Positions 6,670 to 61,999 of a stretch of DNA of 64,000 bases are shown here, piece after piece; within the stretch, counting starts at the first letter, position 1; each line of letters begins with the position of its first letter. The DNA comes from Bradyrhizobium sp. sBnM-33 (GTDB taxonomy: Bacteria; Pseudomonadota; Alphaproteobacteria; Rhizobiales; Xanthobacteraceae): NCBI RefSeq assembly GCF_032917945.1, contig NZ_CP136624.1, forward strand, positions 7,378,001 through 7,442,000, read 5' to 3'. The notes beneath the pieces are model-generated. The model did not search any database. It was given only the letters and a program-made list of their open reading frames with translations, and was not told the origin of the DNA. The translations under genes and the position numbers were made by a program.

Positions 6670-7251
6670 ATGTCTCTGGAAAACAGCAAGCCATCGCGCC
6701 GCCTGATGCACAGGCGGTCGGTCGAATGCGAAGGCTTTCTGCGGAACGACGGGCTCTGGGAAGTCGAGGCCTGGCTGCGGGATACCAAGCCTTTCACCCA
6801 GCGCGCCGATCGTTTCCGCGGCGAACTGAAACCGGGCGATCCCGTCCACGACATCGGCCTGCGGCTTGCGATCGACGACGGCATGACCATCCACGAGGCG
6901 GAGGCGATGATGCGCGCCACGCCCTATCCGACCTGCATCGAGGTCGAGCCGATCCTGCGGCGTCTGATCGGCGAGCGAATAGGCCCGGGCTGGCGCGAGA
7001 CGGTGCGGCGCAAGATCGGCCGGCTCGAGACCTGCACGCATCTCGCCGAATTGCTCGGTCCTGCCGTGACCACGCTGTATCAGACCATGTCCTATGGCAG
7101 GAATCCGGAAGGCCGCGATACGCTGGAGAACCAGCAGAACTCCGGCCAACGTCCATTCTTCATCGGCGGCTGCCATTCCTGGCGGACCGACGGCCCCGTT
7201 GTCGCGGCGATGTTTCCGCAGTTCGCGACCAAGCCGGCGGCGAAAGATTAG
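6670..7251 (+). CDS. DUF2889 domain protein
   Basis: The 193-residue cytoplasmic protein begins MSLENSKPSRRLMHRRSVEC; the frame runs further upstream but that part lies inside the quinone reductase gene. The DUF2889 signature is visible: MHRRSVECEGFLRNDGLWEV near the start, then LRDTKPF, LKPGDPVHDIGLRLAID, and PFFIGGCHSWR near the end. The domain has no established function, but it recurs in degradation gene neighbourhoods, including steroid and aromatic degraders. The gene is 29 bases after the quinone reductase and ends 4 bases inside the convergent transporter gene. Confidence 0.85.
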   Translation: MSLENSKPSRRLMHRRSVECEGFLRNDGLWEVEAWLRDTKPFTQRADRFRGELKPGDPVHDIGLRLAIDDGMTIHEAEAMMRATPYPTCIEVEPILRRLIGERIGPGWRETVRRKIGRLETCTHLAELLGPAVTTLYQTMSYGRNPEGRDTLENQQNSGQRPFFIGGCHSWRTDGPVVAAMFPQFATKPAAKD

Positions 7252-8516
7252 CCGCGGACGCGATCGTAGATCGCAAACGCTGCGGCCAGCACGCATCCGG
7301 CGATGATGCCGAATGTCAGATCTTCGATCAGCGTGAGGCCGAAAGTTGCGATCAGCACCGCCGCACTGCGCCAATCGTGAAGCAAGCGAAGGAATTCTTC
7401 CTTCTCCGCCATGTTCCAGCACACCACCACCAGCACGCCCGCCAGCGCGGAGAGCGGAATGAAGCTCGCCAACGGCGCTGCGACCAGCATGAAAGCCAAA
7501 ACGAGGATCGCATGCGCCATGCCGGAGACCGGGCTGCAGGCGCCCGCCCGAATATTGGTCGCGGTACGCGCGATCGTTCCGGTCACGCTGATGCCGCCGA
7601 AGATGGCGGAGGCGACGTTCGCAATGCCCTGCGCCACCACCTCCATGTTGTAGCGGTGCTTGCGCCCGGTCATGCCGTCGGCGACCTTGGCGGACAACAG
7701 GCTCTCGACCGCACCCAGAAGAGTGAAGGACAGCGCCGCCGGCAACACCTCGAGCACCGAAGCATAGGAGATCGAGGGTAGCTGCGGTGACGGCACTCCA
7801 TCAGGCAATTGTCCGAAATGACTGCCGATGGTCTCTACCGGCAGATGAAGCAGAAAGACGGCGACCGAAGCGAGCGTGACCGCGATCAGCATTCCCGGCC
7901 AATTCGGTGCCAGCCGCCGCAGCAGGAAGATCAGGGCCGCCGACCCCACGCCAACCGCCAGCGCGGCCGGACTGATGGTCGGCAAGGATTGGCCGAGCAT
8001 CACAAGCTTCGGCAACAGCGGTCCGGGTTCGGCCGCAGGCAGCTTGAGGCCGCCGAGATCCCTGAGCTGACTGGCAAAGATCGTGACCGCAATGCCGCAT
8101 GTAAAGCCGACGGTCACCGGATGCGGAATGTAGCGGATCAGCGCCCCGAGCCGCAGCAGCCCGATCACCGTCAGCATGAAGCCGGAGATGAAGACCGTCA
8201 GCAGCAGCCCCTCGATGCCGAATTTCGTCACGGTTGCCGACACCAGGACGATGAACGCGCCCGCGGGTCCGCCGATCTGGTAACGGCTGCCACCGAGCGC
8301 CGATACTAAAAAGCCGCCGATCACGGCGGCGTACAATCCCCGCTCGGGCGAAACGCCCGAGGCGACGGCGATCGCCATCGACAGCGGGAGTGCAACGATG
8401 GCGACCGTCAAGGCCGCCAGCAAATCCTTTCGAAAGCAGCCGAGATCGTATCCCTCGGACAGGACGGTCGCGAGCTTTGGGCGATAATGATGGGCAGTAG
8501 CGGAGCCGTCGGGCAT
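7248..8516 (-). CDS. SulP-family anion transporter without STAS domain
   Basis: The 422-residue membrane protein has the SulP core: VAIVALPLSMAIAVASGVSP in TM1 region, RYQIGGPAGAFIVLVSATV (TM3 anion-site region) and IPHPVTVGFTCGIAVTI. It has about ten or more TM segments. It ends at YDRVRG right after the last TM helix, so the cytoplasmic STAS domain of typical sulfate permeases is absent. Substrates in the family include sulfate, bicarbonate and dicarboxylates. The stop overlaps the convergent DUF2889 gene by 4 bases. The nearby SsuD-like monooxygenase would release sulfite, so a sulfur link is possible but unproven. Confidence 0.9.
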   Translation of the reverse strand: MPDGSATAHHYRPKLATVLSEGYDLGCFRKDLLAALTVAIVALPLSMAIAVASGVSPERGLYAAVIGGFLVSALGGSRYQIGGPAGAFIVLVSATVTKFGIEGLLLTVFISGFMLTVIGLLRLGALIRYIPHPVTVGFTCGIAVTIFASQLRDLGGLKLPAAEPGPLLPKLVMLGQSLPTISPAALAVGVGSAALIFLLRRLAPNWPGMLIAVTLASVAVFLLHLPVETIGSHFGQLPDGVPSPQLPSISYASVLEVLPAALSFTLLGAVESLLSAKVADGMTGRKHRYNMEVVAQGIANVASAIFGGISVTGTIARTATNIRAGACSPVSGMAHAILVLAFMLVAAPLASFIPLSALAGVLVVVCWNMAEKEEFLRLLHDWRSAAVLIATFGLTLIEDLTFGIIAGCVLAAAFAIYDRVRG

Positions 8517-8872
8517 TTGGCGGGCGAACCAATCTGGGTTCGGAGACTATAGTCGAAGGCCCGGCGGACTGCCACCGGATCAAATACGGGCCGAAGCGAC
8601 TTTCGTTTGACCCAGGCGCATAGCTTCAACCAAGGCTGCCGGGCAATCATGCTTGCTCGCGACACGGGCACGCGACTGCATGCTTCCCCGTCGACCCTTC
8701 GCCCGCCCGACGATGCTACTGGGCTCCTTTCGCTGCCCGAACGGCGGAGGCAGATACCGTCCCTGTCCTGAAGAACCGCTTCGCGATGTGACACCGCGAC
8801 CGCGGCATGCCACGTCGCCGAAACCTGTGATAACCTTTCCACTGAACGGCTCCGGTTCATCGGAGAGTGACG
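8517..8872. other. Intergenic region, divergent promoters expected
   Basis: No gene is supported in these 356 bases. Short open frames on both strands show no family features. The stretch separates the divergent SulP and HD-domain genes and must hold their promoters, but no clear -35/-10 pair was found. GGAGAG at 8862-8867 is the ribosome site of the downstream gene. Confidence 0.5.
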
Positions 8873-9715
8873 ATGAGAACCATCACGGCGTCGGCAGCCC
8901 GCAGGCTCGGCAAATTCCTGACCAAGGACTTCCGCGAAATCTTTGGTCCCATGCATGACGATCTGGCGGAGCGCCTCGGCTCACTTGCCCGGATCACCAT
9001 CGAATGCATTGGAAGAAGCGACGCTCTCTATCACAATTATGAGCATACGTGGCTGGTCACGATGGCCGGCCGCGACATCCTGCAAGGCATGATGATGTCG
9101 CGCCGTATCGAACCTTCCGACTACACGCATCTCATCGTTGCCTGCCTGCTGCACGACATCGGCTATGTTCGCGGCATATTGAGCGGCGATACCGACGACG
9201 AGTTCGTGGTCGATGAAGACGGACGGAGAATCGCCTTGCCTCGCGGAGCGTCGGATGCCGCGCTGATGCCCTACCACGTCGACCGTTCGAAGCTGTTTGC
9301 CATGGAACGGCTCGGAAATTCACCAGTGATGGACGCCGCACGCATCGTTGAGGCGATCGAGCATACACGCTTCCCGCCTCCACCCGAGAGGAAGCCAACG
9401 GAGACGAACATACCTCGTCTGGTTCAGGCCGCGGACCTGATCGGGCAACTTGGCGACCCGATGTACGCAAGAAAGGTCAATGCGCTTTTTTACGAATTTG
9501 AGGAAACAGGGATGAATCACCAGCTTGGATATTCATGTCCGGCGGATCTGGTGGAAAAGTATCCGGACTTCTTCTGGAACAGCGTCTCGGAACATCTCGA
9601 CGAAGGCATCAAGTACCTGAACCTGACCGCTTCCGGCCGTCAATGGATCGCCAATCTTCACCACCATCTATTATGCGCGGAGAATGCTCGACGTCTGATG
9701 GGACCGCAGCATTGA
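8873..9715 (+). CDS. HD-domain metal-dependent phosphohydrolase-like protein
   Basis: The start is the ATG at 8873, 5 bases after GGAGAG. The 280-residue protein carries an HD-type fold: YHNYEHTWLV (first His, with the HxxxH spacing) near residue 45, CLLHDIGYVRG (the paired His-Asp) near residue 85, then IVEAIEHTRFPPP and LVQAADLIGQLGDP as later metal ligands. It is therefore a likely phosphohydrolase or nucleotide-signal hydrolase in the cytoplasm. There is no sensor or GGDEF/EAL partner. It stands alone between intergenic gaps, and its substrate is unknown. Confidence 0.82.
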   Translation: MRTITASAARRLGKFLTKDFREIFGPMHDDLAERLGSLARITIECIGRSDALYHNYEHTWLVTMAGRDILQGMMMSRRIEPSDYTHLIVACLLHDIGYVRGILSGDTDDEFVVDEDGRRIALPRGASDAALMPYHVDRSKLFAMERLGNSPVMDAARIVEAIEHTRFPPPPERKPTETNIPRLVQAADLIGQLGDPMYARKVNALFYEFEETGMNHQLGYSCPADLVEKYPDFFWNSVSEHLDEGIKYLNLTASGRQWIANLHHHLLCAENARRLMGPQH

Positions 9716-51882: not shown

Positions 51883-53445
51883 CTATGCCGAGATGGAGTT
51901 TTCGTGGGCACCTTGCCGGTCCGGAATGCTGCGCCAATCGCGCCACTTTCTCACCGACGGTCCGCTCGCCGGTTCGATCGCGGCCAATAGCGCAGCATTG
52001 ATTTCCGCCATCCGCCCGAGCTTCACCATGCATCTGGCAACCGCGACGAACCCGTCCGGCGAATCCGGCTGCAGCCGCATGAACTCGAGATACTGACGCA
52101 GTGCCTCCTCGTGCTGACCGAGGCTTTCGCAGACCTGGCCCAGGCACTGCCATGCCTTGGCCGCATCGGGGCGAACCGTGGTCAAGGTTCGGAACAACCG
52201 TTTGGCCGCGGCGAAATCAGTCTTCGCCGCCAACAACTGGCCCAGCCGGTGCAATGCGTCGGCGTGTCTCGGCTGCACGTCCAAAATCCGACGGTAGCCC
52301 ATTTCGGCGTCGGCGGACTGTCCCTTGCGGTGAAGTTCGGTCGCCTGTTGCAGCAGGTCGGGAATGCACCTGACGTCGATCCGGCCGCCCAGATTCCTGC
52401 CACTCCTGGTTTCCACAACGATGGAGTGGATCTTGCGCTCCTTGCAACCGAACGAATATTTGTACGGCTCGTTGCCGCGCAGGAAGTCGTATTCGACAAA
52501 TCCGTGCTCGATGGCGTGGCGAATGCTGTAGGCATGCAGGATCATGCCCGCCGGCGGTCCCTCGAACGTCTCGTCGCGTCCGGTCATGTAGAACGAGAAG
52601 GTCCGCTTGCGCGGCTCCACCAGGGTGGCCAGCGCCGCAACGGGCCGGTCGCCATGCCAAAAGGTCGGCAGGTACACCAGACCGGAATGGAAACTGCGTG
52701 TCAGCATGGTGCCGTTGGAGCGGATCAGGCTATCCATCCGATCCCCCTTCCGCGCACGCCACTTGGTATCCCAGAATCCCAGCAGGGTTTTGAGGTCGCG
52801 ATCAAACGTGTCGGGCGTGGCGACGGTTATTCGATATTCGCTGGACGCTTCGACCTGCTTCAGCAGCCGCCGGATCTTCTGCCGTGTATTGGTGCTGAGC
52901 GCGTCGAGATAACTGTTCCAGTCCTTCGGCAGCGTGGCGTAGGGGCAGAGACTGTTGTCGACCCCGTCGACCTTGATGATCTTGTCGACTTTGGTCGAGT
53001 GAAAGCTTGCCTTCGGAAAACATGCCGTCAGCAATCGCCAGCGCCGCTCGGATATTCTGACATTGTCGAGATGGAGACGCGCCCAGTTCATCTGCCTGAT
53101 GGTGCGGGCAAAGGCCGGAATGACCTTGTGCTCCGCCTCTGGCCTGCAGACGATGCCGGTATAGTCGGCACCGAAATTGCCCGCCATCCGGATGTTGCCC
53201 AAAACGTCGGATTTCTCGATCGTGGTCTGAAGCCGCAACGGAAAGAATGCGACGTAAGGCAGATCGGCAGCGTCACGCTCCTTCGCCGCCAGGATGAACC
53301 ATGGTCCCGGGATGCAGGACAGCCAGCCGCTCAGCCATTTCCATGACAGGAATATCTGCGCTTCGTCGTCCGCGTCGTAGACGGCATTCCAGTTGTCCTC
53401 GAGTTTTGCCAGCGACGGCAAGCCTTCGATGATGTCGATATGCAC
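51883..53445 (-). CDS. FemAB/CelD-like GNAT acyltransferase fused to TPR repeats
   Basis: The 520-residue protein has an N-terminal GNAT domain of the type found in CelD/BcsL and FemAB proteins (residues about 1-375: QIFLSWKWLSGWLSCIPGPW, TNTRQKIRRLLKQVEA, GDRPVAALATLVEPRKRTFS, FLRGNEPYKYSFGCKERKIH). About four TPR units follow (about 375-490: AEMGYRRILDVQPRHADALH, RLFRTLTTVRPDAAKAWQCL, EALRQYLEFMRLQPDSPDGF). It lies 44 bases after the HlyD gene of the type I secretion unit in the same direction. It may acylate or aminoacylate a surface molecule or the secreted protein (inference). Confidence 0.85.
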   Translation of the reverse strand: MHIDIIEGLPSLAKLEDNWNAVYDADDEAQIFLSWKWLSGWLSCIPGPWFILAAKERDAADLPYVAFFPLRLQTTIEKSDVLGNIRMAGNFGADYTGIVCRPEAEHKVIPAFARTIRQMNWARLHLDNVRISERRWRLLTACFPKASFHSTKVDKIIKVDGVDNSLCPYATLPKDWNSYLDALSTNTRQKIRRLLKQVEASSEYRITVATPDTFDRDLKTLLGFWDTKWRARKGDRMDSLIRSNGTMLTRSFHSGLVYLPTFWHGDRPVAALATLVEPRKRTFSFYMTGRDETFEGPPAGMILHAYSIRHAIEHGFVEYDFLRGNEPYKYSFGCKERKIHSIVVETRSGRNLGGRIDVRCIPDLLQQATELHRKGQSADAEMGYRRILDVQPRHADALHRLGQLLAAKTDFAAAKRLFRTLTTVRPDAAKAWQCLGQVCESLGQHEEALRQYLEFMRLQPDSPDGFVAVARCMVKLGRMAEINAALLAAIEPASGPSVRKWRDWRSIPDRQGAHENSISA

Positions 53446-53489
53446 GGCGGACGCCTTTCCAAAGTGCGTGTTGAGTTCCTGTCGTGTGC

Positions 53490-54854
53490 CTAGCGCTCCC
53501 GGAATGCGCGCATAAAGCTGTCGTAGATGGGCCTCATGAGGTACTGGAAGAACGTACGCTCCGCCGTCTTGATGTAGACCTCGGCGGGCATGCCGGGCGT
53601 CGGACTGAAGCCCGGAAGGTTCCGGCTCTCTTCGCTGTTGAGCTTGACGCGCACGATATAAATGTCGGTCGGTCCCACCTGCTGGGACTTCTTTTCATCC
53701 GCCAGCGTATCTGCGGACAGATAGATGACGTCGCCGGATACCATCGGCGTGATGCGCTGGTTCAGTGCCGTCAACCGCACCATCGCCGTCTGCCCGTGCT
53801 TCACGCTGTCGATGTCCTGCGGCCGCAATCGCGCCTCGATGATGAGTTCGTCCTTCAGCGGCAAAAGCTCCATGATGTTCTTGCCGGCTTCGACCACGCC
53901 GCCCCGCGTATGATAGCGAAGCTTCACCACCACGCCGCTTACCGGCGCCACGACGCGGACCCGATCAAGTACGCCCTTGGCGCTCAGCATCCGCTCGCGG
54001 ACGTCAGCCAGTTCGCCGCGGATCTCGTGCATCTGCTCGACCGCGGTCTTGATCGCGGTCTTGCGCACACCATTGATCTGCTCGACCGCACGGGCGATAC
54101 GTTCCTTGGCATCGCCGATGTCGCCCATGATGCGGCCGACCTCACCTTCCAGATTGGCCTTCGACCGCTGCAGCAGCATCAGTTCCGGCTTGCGCACCAG
54201 CCCGGCCTGCACCAGCTTGTCCTTGGTCACGATTTCCTCGTCGAGCAGAGCGATCTGGCGCCGGACCGCGTCCAGTTGCACCCGCGATCCCCGGATCCGC
54301 TCCTCCAGAGCGTTGATGCTCTCCTGAATACTCTTGACGTCGCTGTTGAGGTTGTTGCGGCGCGCCGCAAACGTCATCTGCTGGCTGTCCACGATTTCCT
54401 TCACCTCGGGCGACTTGTCCAGCCAAGTCACGACCTCGGTCGGAAGCGTGATATCCGACTCTTCCCTCATCTCGGCCTGCAGCCTTGCATCCATGGCCGA
54501 CAGGCGGATGCGCCGCAGGAACAGCCGCTGCAGCTCCGCACGCGCCGCGGTGTCGTCAAGCTCAAGCAAGGTTTGTCCGGCTTCCACCGTGTCGCCTTCG
54601 CGCACGTAGATTTCGCGGATCATTCCGCCTTCGAGATGCTGGATGATCTTGTTCTGCCCGGTGACGACGAACACACCCGACGAGACCACGGCGCCGGCGA
54701 TCGGTGCCGTGTTGCCCCACACGCCGAAGCCCATCAGCACCACCGCCATGATCAGCGCACCGGCGACGGTTGGCAGCTTGGTCGATCGCGGCAGCGAATC
54801 GTACCAGGTGCCCGCTGATTCTGCGGACCGGTCCGCAATTTTCCTGTTGGCCAT
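53490..54854 (-). CDS. HlyD-family periplasmic adaptor of a type I secretion system
   Basis: The 454-residue membrane fusion protein has one N-terminal TM helix ([20 protein letters not shown] near residue 27) and a lipoyl-like half [21 protein letters not shown] long coiled coil follows (about residues 120-290, EVDNKL-free heptads such as [20 protein letters not shown]). The C-terminal beta-barrel ends [20 protein letters not shown], typical of PrtE/LapC-type adaptors. It bridges the ABC exporter to an outer membrane TolC-type channel, which is not in this window. It follows the exporter gene by 38 bases. Confidence 0.93.
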
Positions 54855-54892
54855 CGCGCAACCTCGTTCCTGTCAAATCCAGCCGACGTCCC

Positions 54893-56920
54893 TCAATTCA
54901 GCGAAGGGGGACTACCCGGCCCGGTCGGGGTATTGTTCGGCTTGCGTCCGCTAATCATCGGAATGATCTCGTCGCGGCTGCCGAAAGCCTGCACCGCGCC
55001 CTGATGCAGGATCATGATCTTGTCGACGCTCATCAGCAGTGCCGCGCGCTGCGTAATCGTCACCACCGTGATCTGCTTTTCCTTGGCGCGCAGCAGCGCC
55101 TTGGCCAGCGCCCGCTCGCCATTGGAGTCGAGATTCGAATTCGGCTCGTCGAGCACCATCAGGCGCGGGTTGCCGAAGAAGGCGCGCGCCAGTCCGATCC
55201 GCTGCCGCTGGCCGCCCGATAGCGGACTGCCGTCCATGCCGACGATGGTCTCGTAGCCCTGGGCAAAACTAGAGATCATCTCATGCACATCGGCCATCTC
55301 GGCGGCGTCGAAAACATCCTCGTCGCGTGCGTCGTCGCGCATGCGGCCGATGTTGGCCTTGATGGATGCGGGGAATAATTGCACGTCCTGCGGCAGGTAG
55401 CCTACGCTCTCGCCGAACTGCCGCGGATCCCAGTTGCGCAGATCCATCATATCCAGCCTGACGCTGCCGGCGGTCGGAATAATGGATCCAACCAGCATGC
55501 GCGCCAGCATAGTTTTCCCGGTTCCGGAGTCTCCAACGATGGCCAGCGATTCTCCGGGCTTCAATTGAAAGCTGATTCCGTTCAGGATCACCTTCTTGTT
55601 CGGCGGCGGCACGTAGAGAATGCGCTCGACGTTAAGATATCCGGCGGGACGCGGCAGGCGGAGCCGCTCCAGGTTGAGCGGCGAGTTGAGCAACAGAGAT
55701 TTGATGCGAGCATAGGCCGAACGCGCCTGCACGAAGTTGCGCCAGCCTTCGATGGTGCCCTCCAGCGGCGCCAACGCGCGGCTCGCGACGATCGAGGCCG
55801 CAATCACCATGCCGGCGGTGATCTGGCTTTCCAGCGCCAGCCATGCGCCCCAGCCCAGGATAGCGATCTGGGTGCACAGCCGCAGGAACTTCGACAACCC
55901 CGTCATCAGGATGTTGCGATCCTGTCCGATCACCTGCGCCTTCAGCGACTCCACGGTCTCGCGGCCCCATACCTGGACGCCTTCCGGAATCATGCCCATC
56001 GCATTGATGACTTGGGCATTGCGGGCCATCGATTCCGCCGTCAGGTTTGCCCTGGCGCCGTAATTGTTCGCCTGGTTGAACGGAATCGCGGTGACGCGCT
56101 GGTTCAGCAGCGCCACGATGATCAGCGCGACGCCCGACCCTAGCACGATGAAACCGAGATGCGGATGGATCAGGAACACGACGGCGAAATAGACCGGCGC
56201 GACCGGCGTATCGAACATCGTCAGCAATACCGGACCGGTAATGAACGCGCGGAGGTGCTGCAGGTCGGCCAGCGTCTGGAATTCGCGGCTGGATCCACTC
56301 TGCGCGGATTTGGCAGCGGCGCTCAGCACGGGTCCGCCCAATTTAGCTTCGGTCTCGACTGCGACCCGCATCAGGATGATGCGGCGCATCATGTCCATCA
56401 GCACATGGGCCCCGATTGCGATAACCACGATGATGGTCAGCATCACCAGCGTGTCCGTGCTGCGGCTGGTCAGCACGCGATCGGACATGTTGAAGAGGTA
56501 GATCGGAATAGCGAGCACCAGCAGGTTGACCGCAACCGAAAACAACGCCACGGTCACGAGGTTGCGGCGGGCGCTCGCGAGGCCCTTGCCGAGAACATCG
56601 CGAAATTCATTGTCGCTGGAGCGCTTTTGCAGCGGCGGCGAGCCGCCACCGCCTCCGCCGCCACCACCACCGGAGGAGCCGCCACCGTCCCTGTCGCCTC
56701 CACGCTGCAGCGGGGGCGCAGGAGTCTGCTGCTCGATCACGACGGTGGATCCCGGCGCCGGGGTCTTGGCTTCCTCCCGTAGGGATGGCTCGACCGCCGG
56801 CGGATCGGCGACTTTGGCTTCGGCCGGAGATGTCTTCTCGTCCGCTAGTTCGACCGGCGGATCCTTGGCATGCGGAGAGGGCTGATCAAACCATGGACGA
56901 AGCGGAATTATCTTTGCCAT
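54893..56920 (-). CDS. Type I secretion ABC exporter (permease-ATPase fusion)
   Basis: The start at 56920 (MAKIIPLRPWFDQPSPHAKD) is chosen because upstream codons overlap the preceding gene; no strong ribosome site helps. The 675-residue PrtD/LapB-like exporter has a disordered N-terminus with a run of ten glycines (about residues 86-95) and six TM helices (VALFSVAVNLLVLAIPIYLF and others). The ATPase has Walker A IVGDSGTGKTMLARMLVGS, signature [17 protein letters not shown] and Walker B LMVLDEPNSNLD. No C39 peptidase domain is present, so substrates keep a C-terminal signal. It follows the 643-residue acidic protein gene. Confidence 0.92.
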   Translation of the reverse strand: MAKIIPLRPWFDQPSPHAKDPPVELADEKTSPAEAKVADPPAVEPSLREEAKTPAPGSTVVIEQQTPAPPLQRGGDRDGGGSSGGGGGGGGGGSPPLQKRSSDNEFRDVLGKGLASARRNLVTVALFSVAVNLLVLAIPIYLFNMSDRVLTSRSTDTLVMLTIIVVIAIGAHVLMDMMRRIILMRVAVETEAKLGGPVLSAAAKSAQSGSSREFQTLADLQHLRAFITGPVLLTMFDTPVAPVYFAVVFLIHPHLGFIVLGSGVALIIVALLNQRVTAIPFNQANNYGARANLTAESMARNAQVINAMGMIPEGVQVWGRETVESLKAQVIGQDRNILMTGLSKFLRLCTQIAILGWGAWLALESQITAGMVIAASIVASRALAPLEGTIEGWRNFVQARSAYARIKSLLLNSPLNLERLRLPRPAGYLNVERILYVPPPNKKVILNGISFQLKPGESLAIVGDSGTGKTMLARMLVGSIIPTAGSVRLDMMDLRNWDPRQFGESVGYLPQDVQLFPASIKANIGRMRDDARDEDVFDAAEMADVHEMISSFAQGYETIVGMDGSPLSGGQRQRIGLARAFFGNPRLMVLDEPNSNLDSNGERALAKALLRAKEKQITVVTITQRAALLMSVDKIMILHQGAVQAFGSRDEIIPMISGRKPNNTPTGPGSPPSLN

Positions 56921-57035
56921 ATGCGGCGTTGCTTCGTCATACTCCCTCAAGCGCCAACTACCGCCTGGACGAACATCCCAACCCCACATTTGGAAAACTC
57001 CGTTACTTCCAATAATCAAAACATCTTGCTTGTCG

Positions 57036-58967
57036 CTAATGCAGCACGCTCGCCATCGGGTCTGACTGCACCGAATTGCCCATCCCTGCCGGCGGCTGGG
57101 TCGTCGCGTCCTGAGGGTGGTCATCGACGAAAGCAATGAGTTCGGTCACCAGCGCGTTGGTATCGGCGTTGACGGCATTGGACTCCGCCGGCACCAGATC
57201 GGCCTGCACCAGAATGGAATCGGTGTAGATCTCGCCCCTGACGTAGGTGGCATCAGGGTTGACGTCGACGATCGCAGCGTCGTTGGCCAGTTCATTGCCT
57301 CCGGTGGTGACCGACTGCGTCACGGCCCCATCGGGATCAAGCGCCATCAGATCGGCTAACGGCTGGTTCTGAAGCTGATACATCACGTCGACGTCGGAGG
57401 TGATGTTGGTCTGCCAGATCGCATTGATGTCGTAATAGTCGCCGGTGATGTAGAGCACCCTTAGGGGGCCGCCATGGCCGATGAGGGCGCCGGCCAGTTC
57501 GGGATCGAGTGATGTCAACCCGGCGGCCAGCAGGCTTTCGATCAGTTCGAGATGTGCCGGCAGTCCGTCAAAGGTATCGCCGCCATAGTTTGCAACTGCC
57601 GCTTCGTTCAACAGACTGTTGTCACCTGAACTCACAGATTGGGACGGATCGGCGCCGTCGGCCGCCATCTTGATCTTGTCGTTGTCCAACAAGATGTTGT
57701 TTTGAAAGATGACGTTCAGACCGTGATAGCTGCCCTTGATGATGATCAGGTCGTATTCGATGCTGCCATCAAGGATCTGGGCCAGATTGCCCTGGGTGTT
57801 GTAACCACCGACGAGGTTGTAGTGGCTACTGTCGCTGACCTGCGTTGCCACATCATTGTCGGAGAGATAGTTGACCTGAGCCACTGCATGAACGCTGTAG
57901 AAGTCGCCGTCGACCACATCGACGATCCAGTTCGGGCCGGCGAACTGGGCCGGGAAGCCGGCGTAGATGCTGGGGTTCTGGAGAAAATCGGCGATGTTGG
58001 TCGCGACGTTCTGATCGCTATTCGATGATGGCACACGGTCCCCGCCCGATACGCGGACACCGTCATCGTTGGCGATGGTGTTGGTCTGGAAGATGGCATC
58101 GGTCTTGAAGTAGTCTCCCATCACTACCATAGTGCGGGCGGACTCGCCGAGATCGACGAGCAGCGCTGCGTTGATGCTGAAGTTGCCGCCCAACGTCGCC
58201 CATTGCCCGATCCCGTCGCCGGTGTCCGGCAATTCTTGCGGCTCATGCGGCGGCGTCGGTTCCGAGGGTCGCTCCTGCAGCTCGCCGTTGACATAGTAGC
58301 CGGGGGTCACCGAGTTCGCGTCCGGCTCGCCGCCGCCATCAGCCCAGGCCGCGTCGCGAGCGATCAGGAAATCCGTAGCACCGCCGTCGGTCTGGGGCAT
58401 CTGCCAATCGGTGGGAATCGCGGCGTTCGCATCGGCCGCCAACTCCGCAATGGTGGCCATCGCATCGCTGTTGAGCTGTGTAATCAGAGGTTCAACGGCG
58501 AGTAGGAGATCCGCCGGCAAATTGGCGTCGTCATCATCCATGAAATTGTATTGATGAACCGTCAGTTGGCTCTCCGGGCCACCATCCTCGTATCGCACCT
58601 TGACGTGATAGTCGGGACTGCCTCCGCCGCCACCGCCGCCCGGCAGTTTTGGCAGCGGGACGCTTGGCGCCGGCGAACGCGGAAAGAAATCGGAATCGTC
58701 GTCCTGCGGACTACGGAGCTTCAGCGGGCGTCCCCGGCCGAACTGAATCAGATCCTCCGGTATCGGCTCCGGCACCGGGCCTGCCAGGGTCTCCATGTCC
58801 TCCGGCACGAAGCGATGGTCGTAATGCGGCCGCGGCGTCGTGTAGTCTTCGGAAGGACGCGGCGCGAGACTATCGTCATAATGGACGCGGTCGCGGGCGA
58901 TGTCGTGGAAGATCTGCAGATATCCTGCGAAGTGGGAAACGATCTCGTCGAAGCTCGCTGACGCCAT
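57036..58967 (-). CDS. Acidic repeat protein of unknown function, likely type I secretion substrate
   Basis: The 643-residue protein (ATG with GGGGAGG 5 bases upstream) has no signal peptide or TM segment. Residues 1-125 are proline- and acid-rich with seven glycines at 110-116. From about 260 a unit recurs: GNFSINAALLVD (261), GDYFKTDAIFQTN (284), GDFYSVHAVAQVN (354), GSYHGLNVIFQNN (412), GDYYDINAIWQTN (509) and GEIYTDSILVQAD (578). Each is usually preceded by a hydrophobic strand and followed by an Asp-rich turn such as SDND. The gene directly precedes the exporter gene. The layout suggests a secreted beta-rich repeat protein; no known family was recognised. Confidence 0.75.
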   Translation of the reverse strand: MASASFDEIVSHFAGYLQIFHDIARDRVHYDDSLAPRPSEDYTTPRPHYDHRFVPEDMETLAGPVPEPIPEDLIQFGRGRPLKLRSPQDDDSDFFPRSPAPSVPLPKLPGGGGGGGSPDYHVKVRYEDGGPESQLTVHQYNFMDDDDANLPADLLLAVEPLITQLNSDAMATIAELAADANAAIPTDWQMPQTDGGATDFLIARDAAWADGGGEPDANSVTPGYYVNGELQERPSEPTPPHEPQELPDTGDGIGQWATLGGNFSINAALLVDLGESARTMVVMGDYFKTDAIFQTNTIANDDGVRVSGGDRVPSSNSDQNVATNIADFLQNPSIYAGFPAQFAGPNWIVDVVDGDFYSVHAVAQVNYLSDNDVATQVSDSSHYNLVGGYNTQGNLAQILDGSIEYDLIIIKGSYHGLNVIFQNNILLDNDKIKMAADGADPSQSVSSGDNSLLNEAAVANYGGDTFDGLPAHLELIESLLAAGLTSLDPELAGALIGHGGPLRVLYITGDYYDINAIWQTNITSDVDVMYQLQNQPLADLMALDPDGAVTQSVTTGGNELANDAAIVDVNPDATYVRGEIYTDSILVQADLVPAESNAVNADTNALVTELIAFVDDHPQDATTQPPAGMGNSVQSDPMASVLH

Positions 58968-59057
58968 GGGAACCTCCCCGTGTCGCCGCGAACTACGGGG
59001 CGCGTGCGCGACCCGCAGCTTCTTGGCGGCAACAGCAGCGACTGAAATGAATTGACT

Positions 59058-59090
59058 GAAAAAAACCCGCGCGGCTGGTGCCGCGCGGGT
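59058..59090 (-). terminator. Intrinsic terminator after the low-complexity protein gene
   Basis: An 11-bp perfect stem ACCCGCGCGGC/GCCGCGCGGGT (59065-59075 with 59080-59090) has a 4-base loop and is followed on the minus strand by seven T residues. It lies 13 bases after the stop of the low-complexity protein gene and before the 643-residue protein gene. Confidence 0.85.
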
Positions 59091-59102
59091 CGAACGTGAA
59101 AG

Positions 59103-59933
59103 CTAAGCTGTATCGCTGTCGGTCAGATCGCCACCAGCAGCCTGAATGGTGATGCTGTTGAACTGAATGTTCGCACCCTGCGTGATGTTCTGATCGAAGG
59201 CCGACTGGTTGAGAACTGCGTCGGCGCTCGAAGATACGCTGCCACGCGCCCCAAAATCGCCGACGTCGCCGATCCTGGACTCGCCGCCCTCGATCTTGGC
59301 GTCCATGCTGAAGCTGGCACCCGGCTCACACCACGATCCGCCCGCGCCGCCGTTGTAGTTGGCAGACGAGCTGTTGCTGTCGTTATCGACCAGGTTGTTG
59401 ACCTGATCAATATTGAACTGGTTACCGTCGTTCATCTTCTGGTCCACCACGTCGGGCATGATGACCGAACCGTGCGTGTCGAAGTCGTAGAGAGCGATGA
59501 CCGGGGTGCTCAGGCCGCTTGTGTCCACATCGACATCCACATCGACATCGACGTCTACCTTGCTTTCGACGGTGTTTTCGATCTTGTTTTCGATGTCGTT
59601 GTCGATCTTGTTGTCGACCGTGTTGTCGACGTCGTTGTCGAGGTCGTTATCTACCTTGTTGTCGAGCTTGTTGTCGACCTCGTTCGAGTTTTCGTTCTTG
59701 TTCTCATTCTCATTTTCATTCTTGTTGTCATTGTCGTTGTCGTTCTCGTTCTCGCTCTTGGAATCCAGCGACTGAACGGCGAACTGCAATTGGCCCTGGC
59801 CCTGACCTTGGCCTTGACCCTGGCCCTGCAATTGAGCCTGGAGATTGGCCTGCGCTTGCAACTGGTCTTGCTTCTGGTCCTGGTCCTGTTCCTGATCGTT
59901 GGGATCCCAATAATTCTTGGCCTGCTTACCCAT
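59103..59933 (-). CDS. Low-complexity acidic protein with Q-x, N-x and [VIL]-D-N-x repeats
   Basis: The start at 59933 (MGKQAKNYWDPNDQEQDQDQ) has AGGAG 6 bases upstream. The 276-residue protein has no signal peptide. Residues 14-54 alternate Gln with D/L/A/G, including a GQGQGQGQ run. Residues 59-85 alternate Asn with E/D/K. Residues 86-125 are ten tetrapeptides of the VDNK, LDND, IENK kind, then six VD pairs (126-137). The last 140 residues are more ordinary and Gly/Ser/Asn-rich, ending GGDLTDSDTA. It is acidic, probably calcium-binding or matrix-forming and exported by the neighbouring type I system (inference). No family was recognised. Confidence 0.78.
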   Translation of the reverse strand: MGKQAKNYWDPNDQEQDQDQKQDQLQAQANLQAQLQGQGQGQGQGQGQLQFAVQSLDSKSENENDNDNDNKNENENENKNENSNEVDNKLDNKVDNDLDNDVDNTVDNKIDNDIENKIENTVESKVDVDVDVDVDVDTSGLSTPVIALYDFDTHGSVIMPDVVDQKMNDGNQFNIDQVNNLVDNDSNSSSANYNGGAGGSWCEPGASFSMDAKIEGGESRIGDVGDFGARGSVSSSADAVLNQSAFDQNITQGANIQFNSITIQAAGGDLTDSDTA

Positions 59934-60233
59934 AACGCGCTCCTGTGGTTGGAGCATCGCGGGCGGAACGAGATCGCTGATCTTCTAAGTCTGCGGTCTT
60001 CGATACGCGGGCGGTGCTCTTTACGTCGGTTCTCCCGACTGCCGACACTCGCCTTATTGCGAACGACGGCACGGTCAGAATGCCGACACATCTTCGCCAA
60101 CAACATGCATGCATTAGATGCGTCGCTGTATCTTGCGATATCAACCATCGACGCGGTTGGCGTTCAGAGCGAGTCAGTTTTTTGAATGAATAGCGGCGCG
60201 ACGATGCATGATCGTCCGTCATCGCGGTCTGCT
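59934..60233. other. Intergenic region upstream of the low-complexity protein gene
   Basis: No gene is supported here. The stretch should hold the promoter of the low-complexity protein and the 3' end of the HEPN-like gene. A short hairpin GACGATGCATGATCGTC lies at 60200-60216, but no T-run follows it, so it was not called a terminator. Confidence 0.4.
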
Positions 60234-60821
60234 TCAAGCCGCGTCGCGCGGCACGCTTTGTGGCTTCACGCCGTAAACATGCGCTTCAAGGCGCGGCAGG
60301 AGATCCCAGATCTCGCGGTTGATCTTCGTCATTTCGTGGGTCGTCCGCACCATCTCGTGCAGACGGCTTTCGTCCAGCGCCTTTATCTCTCCGAACCGCA
60401 AGCTCGACTTTGTTTCCATCAATCGCATCGATTGCGTGTGGGTGATGGCGCCCGAGGAATCGAAAATGAACATGCAATGATTCAATTCATTGCGAACCTT
60501 GGTCGATTCCGAAAAACGTTCGATGAGAGCTGTCAGATTTTTCGACAGTGCCTTGTCGCTGACCCTGATCTTGGCCAGCCGCTGGATCAGATCGAGTCTG
60601 GCGCGGGTCGTGTTCAATGTCGCGAACACGACTGCGGCGGAAGCCTCGTCGGTGCGCAACAGAATCATCAGCACGTAGATGAAAAGGCTCTCGTTATTCG
60701 ACCAACTGCAGATCAGGTTTCCCATCAAAGCGAGAACGAAGGTACGGCGATCCGCCGAGGCGGGAGCCGCGGCAGCGAGCAGGTCGAAATCCGGCTTTGG
60801 AGGCAGCTTGCTGACAAACAT
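60234..60821 (-). CDS. Hypothetical protein with HEPN-like RX4H motif
   Basis: The start at 60821 (MFVSKLPPKPDFDLLAAAAP) is chosen over an open frame to 60953 because GCGGAACC precedes it. The 195-residue helical protein has FVLALMGNLICSWSNNESLF, VVFATLNTTRARLDLIQRLA and VRNELNHCMFIFDSSGAITH. Arg-Asn-x-x-x-His (R, four residues, H) is the catalytic pattern of HEPN domains, some of which are RNases or nucleotidyltransferase partners. No nucleotidyltransferase lies next to it. It is divergent from the LuxR-type gene. Function is unknown. Confidence 0.68.
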   Translation of the reverse strand: MFVSKLPPKPDFDLLAAAAPASADRRTFVLALMGNLICSWSNNESLFIYVLMILLRTDEASAAVVFATLNTTRARLDLIQRLAKIRVSDKALSKNLTALIERFSESTKVRNELNHCMFIFDSSGAITHTQSMRLMETKSSLRFGEIKALDESRLHEMVRTTHEMTKINREIWDLLPRLEAHVYGVKPQSVPRDAA

Positions 60822-61132
60822 CGTATGGTTCCGCGCCTTGCAAGGCCGCAACGATACTACCGTACCTGCTTCGTTACGGCAGACGTACATATCAAAAGAT
60901 ATATTAGGGAGGATTGCGGGGTGCCGTTTTTGCAATGGGGAATGAAAAGGCACGTTTTAATGACAAATTTTTGACGACGTCCGGTCACATTTGGCCTGCT
61001 TGGCATTCCCCTTTAACGAGGGTAAAGTTTTTTTGAACATTTAAGATGCAGAGTGAACTAATTCATAGCGACCATGTGCGGTTCCGAAGGAATCTATCGA
61101 TAGCATCGGTCATAATTATCCGGGGGCGCGTT
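60822..61132. other. AT-richer divergent intergenic region
   Basis: No gene is supported. This stretch separates the HEPN-like and LuxR-type genes and is AT-richer than its surroundings. A small inverted repeat ATATCAAAAGATAT lies at 60889-60902. No confident -35/-10 pair was found. Confidence 0.4.
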
Positions 61133-61999
61133 ATGTCAGTCCCACGCAAAAAGACTGTATTTGTTGTAGACGCAATGGCCTTTCGACGAGCTCGAGCGGA
61201 GAGCTTCTTAAGTCCCTGGGCCAGCAACGAACAGGTCGAGCTGATTTCGCTCGATCCTGATGAGGCGCACACAAGGCTTATCGAGCGCACCGAATGCGAG
61301 ATGCTGATCTACAGCGTCGGCGCCCCCTCTCCCCATGAGGTCTTCACCGAGATACAGGTGTTGCATACCCTTCGCCGGGAGGCGGCACTCGCCATCATCT
61401 CTGACGATGAGCATCCCGCCACCGTTCTCGCCGCGATCCGTTGCGGAGCCCGGGGCTACTTCAGCAACTCCATGGCGCCCGACCTTGCGTTGCACGCTCT
61501 TTCATTCGTCCTCCATGGCGGCACTTACTTTCCGCCGGCCGCCATCCTGGCCAGCCAGACCTTCAGTCCGCCGGCGCCTGTCGAATACAGACAACCGGAT
61601 ATATCCCAGGAGCAAGCGCTTCCAGGGCTTGAAGAACAGACGCAGGCGCCCCCTCTCGGGCCGGATGACGGTCCTTACGACCAGCAAGGGTCCCTTTTCG
61701 ACGGTAAGGCAGTAAGCGTGCAGCGCGACCATGGCGTAAACGGCGCGCGGCAGTTTACCGAGCGGCAGTACGCGGTGCTGGCTTGCCTCTGCCAAGGCGA
61801 TCCCAACAAGGTGATCGGTCGTAAGCTCGGCATGACCGAAACGACCGTGAAAGTCCACGTCCGCGAAATCATGCGCAAACTGGGCGTGAGCAACCGGACC
61901 CAAGTCGCGATCGCCGCGGCGCGCGTCTGCTTGGACGGTCCCGTCGAACTGATTACTCCGGATTCACCCATGACGGTCAGGTCATCCATATCTCATTAG
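61133..61999 (+). CDS. LuxR/NarL-type regulator with degenerate receiver domain
   Basis: The start at 61133 (MSVPRKKTVFVVDAMAFRRA) is where receiver homology begins; the frame is open to 61046. The 288-residue protein has a receiver-like fold (residues 5-125) in which strand 3 reads CEMLIYSVG, so the phosphorylated Asp is missing. The usual Lys is Ser in GARGYFSNS. A Pro/Gln-rich linker follows, then a LuxR HTH: FTERQYAVLACLCQGDPNKV and TETTVKVHVREIMRKLGVSN. It probably works without phosphorylation. Its place beside the secretion locus suggests it controls those genes (inference). Confidence 0.85.
   Translation: MSVPRKKTVFVVDAMAFRRARAESFLSPWASNEQVELISLDPDEAHTRLIERTECEMLIYSVGAPSPHEVFTEIQVLHTLRREAALAIISDDEHPATVLAAIRCGARGYFSNSMAPDLALHALSFVLHGGTYFPPAAILASQTFSPPAPVEYRQPDISQEQALPGLEEQTQAPPLGPDDGPYDQQGSLFDGKAVSVQRDHGVNGARQFTERQYAVLACLCQGDPNKVIGRKLGMTETTVKVHVREIMRKLGVSNRTQVAIAAARVCLDGPVELITPDSPMTVRSSISH

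Follow-up and report, generated by a model that had tools for sequence, protein, structure and literature searches.

A conserved candidate type I secretion cassette for two acidic repeat proteins in Bradyrhizobium sp. sBnM-33 and its relatives

Within a stretch of 64,000 nucleotides from Bradyrhizobium sp. sBnM-33 (contig NZ_CP136624.1, positions 7,378,001 to 7,442,000 of the forward strand; hereafter the window), we analysed by computation a gene set, very probably a type I secretion cassette dedicated to two acidic proteins, one of 643 amino acids (aa) and a smaller one of 276 aa. The genes of an ATP-binding cassette (ABC) exporter and of a HlyD-family adaptor lie beside those of the two putative cargos. 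A preliminary description of the locus had proposed this pairing, and co-occurrence and adjacency in other genomes support it; the export itself we infer. The cargo role is assigned because of co-occurrence, position, composition and conserved ends of the two proteins. The secretion apparatus is of a known kind. As far as the libraries searched go, the substrates, a HEPN-like partner protein and a terminator lying between the two cargo genes are novel. One conserved export cassette thereby unites two unnamed protein families and a HEPN-like family; it reaches across Hyphomicrobiales and Rhodobacterales and includes a Sinorhizobium meliloti megaplasmid.

Gene arrangement and conservation

On the minus strand the genes follow each other in the order HEPN-like protein, smaller cargo (cargo 1), 643-aa cargo (cargo 2), ABC exporter, HlyD adaptor and GNAT-TPR protein, with 300, 135, 115, 38 and 44 bases between consecutive genes. 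The ABC protein (54893..56920, minus strand, 675 aa) is a PrtD-type permease/ATPase which matches NCBIfam TIGR01842 (type_I_sec_PrtD) with 694.5 bits against a cut-off of 510.15. The periplasmic adaptor (53490..54854, minus strand, 454 aa) matches TIGR01843 with 378.4 bits against a cut-off of 208.65. C39 peptidase is not among the 13 Pfam families listed for the ABC protein. Hence the earlier reading of an ABC exporter without C39 domain and a HlyD adaptor agrees with both curated cut-offs, and every open reading frame (ORF) of the preliminary description was found at its given position. Three matches to TIGR01844 (TolC family), two of them above the cut-off, are present in the genome, all unlinked to the cassette; one of these would supply the outer membrane channel for export.

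Presence of the gene set was analysed in a family sample of 149 genomes, including the window's own. The 643-aa cargo is found in 12 of these, spanning 7 of 47 genera. The same 12 genomes contain the smaller cargo (with additional fragments in G078), the HEPN-like protein (with an additional weak match in G010) and an exporter orthologue of at least 943 bits. The next-best exporters score 635 (G052), 628 (G122) and 472 bits (G080). Surroundings were read for two of these three genomes, G052 (L060) and G122 (L061), and the neighbours differ from those of the cassette. Due to kinship among the genomes, no simple probability can be attached to this co-occurrence.

A scan with the 643-aa alignment yielded 38 loci from named genomes, in which gene presence was determined by ORF clustering. 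Their sources include Bradyrhizobium, Afipia, Nitrobacter, Blastochloris, Bosea, Salinarimonas, Chthonobacter, Stappiaceae, Pseudovibrio and a Rhodobacteraceae bin. In 36 of the 38 an exporter gene follows the 643-aa gene within 1.5 kb. The neighbourhood, whose conservation had been proposed earlier as a check for Bradyrhizobium, extends over these genera; the two loci without exporter, L030 and L044, have a contig edge there. HlyD is present in 35 loci by clustering and in 36 by tblastn, which adds L052, and the smaller cargo in 33 by clustering. Outside these genomes, 32 plasmid records match the repeat core of the 643-aa protein at 24-34% identity. Ten of the 32 loci were examined, and all ten have the exporter beside the 643-aa match as well as ABC, HlyD and HEPN-like matches (ABC and HlyD partial in L073). 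The smaller cargo and its C-terminal module are readable in nine; the frame in L073 seems broken. Since the examined plasmid loci come from Rhizobiaceae and from Rhodobacterales, and so from two orders, the gene set spans Hyphomicrobiales and Rhodobacterales. Conservation across genomes shows that the gene arrangement is not due to chance. In none of the three collections do homologues of the acidic proteins lie routinely away from an exporter, an outcome that would have spoken against the preliminary description; the only stray observed is a mini copy of the smaller cargo in G078. Among database sequences, a protein from Bradyrhizobium sp. 170 is 90% identical to the 643-aa cargo, and UniRef annotates several relatives as 'Type I secretion protein', a name to be taken with caution.

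The two cargo families and their possible roles

The 643-aa protein (57036..58967, minus strand) has no Pfam or NCBIfam match at expectation values (E) up to 1, and for the smaller cargo (59103..59933, minus strand) only chance-level rows were obtained, with a best E of 0.23. Both have a computed isoelectric point (pI) of 4.05, which we take to be the lower floor of the calculator used. Across the two families (37 and 34 proteins, two fragments of the 643-aa family dropped) the pI ranges from 4.05 to 4.37 and the median number of Cys is 0 and 1. Judged by reading of the N-termini, neither cargo shows a hydrophobic signal peptide. The RTX motif GGxGxD occurs in neither protein of the window and on average 0.15 and 0.09 times per protein in the two families. 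The preliminary description had called the two proteins acidic, repetitive, devoid of signal peptides and RTX nonapeptides and outside recognised families, and the present results agree with this, for the signal peptides by reading of the N-termini.

Four or more imperfect copies of a GDYY..N.I.Q.N stretch are found in the 643-aa protein. Its AlphaFold model, built from 48 sequences (mean pLDDT 73.5), consists of a helix at residues 6-28 (low confidence), a disordered linker at 29-119, a confident beta-rich part with two long helices at about 121-596, and a disordered tail. Pairwise identities among 28 diverse sequences, from which close relatives had been dropped, follow this division: 0.52 for the N-terminal helix, 0.23 for the linker, 0.42 for the repeat core, 0.65 for a block at 606-614, 0.14 for the C-terminal linker and 0.36 for the last ten residues. 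The tail ends in DPMASVLH in the window and in MGTVMT, LGGVMT or MQTMLA in relatives.

The ORF of the smaller cargo opens at 59957 (284 aa). A Met at the position of M9 is present in 18 of 18 aligned sequences, so that the start at 59933, giving 276 aa, is likely. The low-complexity sequence has Gln at every second residue (about 21-60), then Asn at every second residue, then four-residue steps similar to VDNK, and two conserved blocks, GNQFNIDQVNNLVDND and a C-terminal module around GANIQFN. In relatives the C-terminal module is kept and the repeats change kind. In L046, L056, L057 and L058, where it might be taken as absent, the smaller cargo exists in long forms of 651-753 aa, which are rich in Gly-Gly-Asp, Asp-Ala or Asn/Asp repeats and have a related C-terminus, least clearly in L046. 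In the plasmid loci the relatives range from 183 to 1006 aa; the one on pSymB of Sinorhizobium meliloti Ak57 has 183 aa and keeps EIVQGANLLSN. In G334 the smaller gene is duplicated in tandem, and in L064 two tandem copies (7012-7857 and 8173-9006) precede a 643-aa homologue. A repeat common to both cargos, with the motif Q-x-N..D-x-D, was considered and rejected: a profile built from 159 segments of the 643-aa family gave a best E of 0.13 with real sequences of the smaller cargo, little different from the 0.18 obtained with shuffled ones.

Outside the cell, a matrix or coat is the most likely role of the cargos and an amyloid a possible one. According to the amyloid explanation, which we hold to be doubtful, the two proteins would form cross-beta fibres after type I export, with the 643-aa protein as nucleator and the Gln/Asn-rich smaller protein supplying the major subunit, in the manner of FapB/FapC or CsgB/CsgA. 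Of the 24 invariant columns in the 643-aa family, 10 hold Asn or Gln (2.5 expected) and 5 hold Gly, the smaller protein has a strict Gln/Asn period of two, and the 27 Foldseek rows for the 643-aa model include two entries for FapC and one for CsgA. However, ordinary beta-helix or adhesin chains make up many of the other rows, and the FapC row has an E of 0.022 with TM-scores of 0.04 and 0.15, which is no fold match. At E up to 10, Pfam lists 10 families for 48 members of the 643-aa family and 9 for 18 members of the smaller family, and no amyloid-subunit family is among them. Amyloid likeness of the cargos is only a lead.

A non-amyloid surface layer or matrix pair, that is, a calcium- or polysaccharide-bound coat with a role like that of RsaA or the Rhizobium Rap proteins, is somewhat easier to accept, though still tentative. 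Proteins with such roles that are exported by type I secretion systems (T1SS) of Alphaproteobacteria are known, RapD and RsaA among them, and the long smaller-cargo versions of Stappiaceae and the Rhodobacteraceae bin are Asp-rich, with DADADA and GGD repeats. Calcium-binding, cadherin-like and S-layer domains, on the other hand, were found in neither cargo.

Two further explanations concern the status of the proteins as secreted partners. It is improbable that only the 643-aa protein is exported and that the smaller protein is an internal chaperone, an anti-aggregation factor or a regulatory factor. The exporter gene directly after the 643-aa gene, the smaller gene ahead of the terminator and the wide length range of its plasmid-borne relatives would fit such a division, but both proteins are alike acidic, poor in Cys and co-occurring, and variation in length and kind of the repeats beside a preserved C-terminal module argues against it. 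Effectors and toxins are among the known type I exports, which is the general ground for regarding the cargos as a secreted effector or antibacterial toxin. We give this very little credence, as neither cargo matches an enzyme or toxin family above chance and no recurring neighbour cluster can be named as an immunity gene, although one cluster of about 180 aa (cluster 7) is itself nameless.

Several observations weigh against a cassette dedicated to both proteins. The distribution is patchy not only in the family sample; in a class sample, matches occur in 2 of 385 genomes, the window's (G000) and G334. The 38 loci, having been found via the 643-aa protein, are uninformative on exporters without this cargo. 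G078 encodes a mini smaller cargo of 79 aa with N/D repeats and the C-terminal module (L063 8513-8752, minus strand), but this genome gave no match to the 643-aa cargo or the HEPN-like gene, nor to the exporter at E 1e-140; the mini copy is perhaps a remnant. No shared repeat is demonstrable between the two cargos, hhalign giving a probability of 2% and E of 0.025, and none of the Foldseek rows for the 643-aa model reaches E 0.001. A single clade of cargo-linked exporters could not be retained either, the deep forks of an exporter tree (54 rows, those below 400 aa dropped) being weak or open with long branches. Finally, the window cargos end in LH and TA and not in the C-terminal [FLI][VAI] reported for RTX substrates in PMC8861453.

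Terminator, HEPN-like partner and regulatory elements

A hairpin with a 12-bp stem and a T tract (59064..59091, minus strand) lies between the two cargo genes, 11 bases past the stop of the smaller one. The region of the window contains 9 terminator-like sites compared to 7.9 expected, so the single hairpin alone proves little. Among relatives, however, 26 of 34 sequences have a terminator-like hairpin within 110 bases after the stop of the smaller cargo, where mononucleotide shuffling predicts 2.1, and such hairpins are rare after the other genes (643-aa 1/38, ABC 1/39, HlyD 3/36). Twenty-eight of the 34 sequences were aligned, namely 24 of the 26 with hairpin plus L029, L040, L042 and L049 without. 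In this alignment 94.8% of cells pair, both partners vary in 6 of the 12 pairs, and the covariation score was reached by none of 500 shuffles. Recurrence across relatives together with covariation indicates that the hairpin is under selection. It presumably lowers downstream transcription.

The HEPN-like gene (60234..60953, minus strand; ORF of 239 aa, conserved part from about residue 45) is found in 35 of the 38 loci, and this near-universal presence makes it a core part of the cassette. R154-N155-x3-H159 is invariant in 27 of 27 sequences and fits the R-x4-6-H motif of HEPN proteins. Pfam gave no HEPN match for the protein of the window and only weak PF18730 matches in 3 of 27 relatives (best E 0.011). 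In the predicted model the helices form a bundle that carries a small beta insert, and after fold searches the HEPN assignment stays tentative. An activity as RNase is a guess. The GNAT-TPR gene (51883..53445, minus strand; P0003, 520 aa), an accessory, matches PF13480 and TPR families; the HlyC family is not among the 20 families listed for it. It is present in 25 loci, and three of the 13 without it end at a contig edge. A LuxR/NarL-type regulator gene, divergent from the cassette (61046..61999, plus strand; ORF of 317 aa, match to GerE/LuxR PF00196), is present in 26 and thus absent from 12. The earlier suggestion that the flanking genes modify or regulate the cargo thus finds only partial support, with a HEPN-like gene that is core but GNAT-TPR and LuxR genes that many loci lack.

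Upstream of the smaller cargo gene lies a conserved element, TTGATATCGCAAGATAC (60128..60144, minus strand), a candidate regulator site. The form TGATATCGCAAGATAC, like the 16-base core of the element, is exact in the window and in L021-L028, the Bradyrhizobium clade, where it lies about 0.1-0.2 kb ahead of the smaller cargo's ORF. With up to 3 mismatches allowed, it was found in none of the remaining 30 loci, and its 15-base core has one exact copy and one copy with 1 mismatch in the genome. LuxR proteins of the same clade are 51-91% identical to that of the window, compared to at most 34% for the others (matches of at least 70 bits). A regulator-site pair is suggested by these sequences, yet close kinship alone could explain the conserved element. 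Simple promoter patterns, which exclude little, gave one EcfG-like match in 34 upstream regions and none for RpoN, RpoH or sigma-70.

Proposed mechanism, related systems and further observations

If the cassette is dedicated to the two acidic proteins, the ABC protein, HlyD and a TolC encoded elsewhere would export both in one step without Sec. The export signals would probably be uncleaved and C-terminal, residing in the conserved end of the 643-aa protein and in the C-terminal module of the smaller protein. By stopping many transcripts, the terminator after the smaller cargo gene may let the smaller protein outnumber both the exporter and the 643-aa protein. Once exported, the smaller protein could form an acidic Gln/Asn- or Asp-rich polymer, which the beta-rich 643-aa repeat protein may anchor or nucleate to give a coat or matrix. 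A bolder version is unlikely in our view: an undescribed system of Alphaproteobacteria producing an extracellular amyloid-like or liquid-like polymer from the two exported proteins, with a hypervariable low-complexity major subunit overproduced via the conserved terminator, a conserved beta-repeat nucleator or anchor, and a HEPN-type RNase as obligate partner tuning the cargo messages.

PrtDEF, RsaDEF and the rhizobial PrsDE are examples of PrtD/HlyD-type systems. The cassette resembles these in having an ABC exporter without C39 and a HlyD adaptor beside cargo genes and an unlinked TolC; it differs in that its two cargos lack RTX repeats and belong to unnamed families, in the HEPN-like core partner and in the covarying inter-cargo terminator. 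As in RTX exoproteins, the cargos are acidic, Asp-rich and encoded near a type I exporter, but GGxGxD is missing. HlyC toxin acyltransferases are GNAT-like enzymes adjoining a type I system; the GNAT-like gene of the cassette likewise adjoins one, but it encodes a PF13480 protein with TPR, lacks a listed HlyC match and varies in presence. FapF and CsgG are the export proteins of Fap and curli fibres, in place of which an ABC exporter adjoins the genes here, and no Fap or curli family match is listed. Like these amyloids (PMC12392863), the 643-aa family has imperfect repeats in which Asn/Gln are conserved, and there are two cargo genes per set. Like the Rap proteins of Rhizobium leguminosarum, which are PrsDE cargo, the cassette proteins would be rhizobial T1SS cargo tied to a matrix; Rap proteins carry Ra/cadherin-like domains, a family match not seen in the cassette cargos. 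Among the titles and abstract openings listed in the literature searched, which comprised neither subscription papers nor preprints, none concerns the cassette. If the cargos form a surface polymer, the cassette would represent a matrix system whose parts leave the cell in one step and whose stoichiometry depends on a terminator, in bacteria of roots, soil and the sea, whose matrix proteins are poorly known. The putative substrates without RTX repeats also bear on the question of what type I exporters recognise.

Some observations concern the exporters. Residues 1-105 of the ABC protein form a Pro/Gly-rich N-terminal extension ahead of the permease domain, and in many distant relatives the match starts only near residue 94-97. 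The genome of the window, one contig of 9.18 Mb, encodes, besides this exporter, six that are type I-like and score above 330 bits. Six own-genome paralogues group together in the exporter tree with support of 100/99. Unrelated proteins of 1329 aa (L061 10821-14810, minus strand) and 401 aa (L060 10833-12038, minus strand) adjoin sister exporters that are 53-54% identical; by reading, their N-termini have an FLTW-FFL stretch in common, and they are perhaps another T1SS cargo family.

Other observations concern neighbouring genes. A weak second HEPN-like match (57 bits) in the window's genome, at G000:C1:5085529-5085897, has no recognised cargo or exporter gene in its surroundings (L062). The unnamed protein of about 180 aa (cluster 7, e.g. 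L058 17548-18075, minus strand) occurs in 22 of the 38 loci, usually adjoining the HEPN-like gene, and is absent from the window's own clade. In six Afipia loci (L029 17289-19859, L031, L032, L033, L043 and L050) an 850-aa protein, FecR-like by reading, follows the cassette, and in four of the six a 540-aa ABC gene lies behind it; the two genes may form a second, adjacent type I system. A small zinc-ribbon protein, similar by reading to a transposase N-terminus, recurs near the cassette in L049, L053, L056, L058 (cluster 17) and L064 (5452-5916) and is possibly a domesticated regulator.

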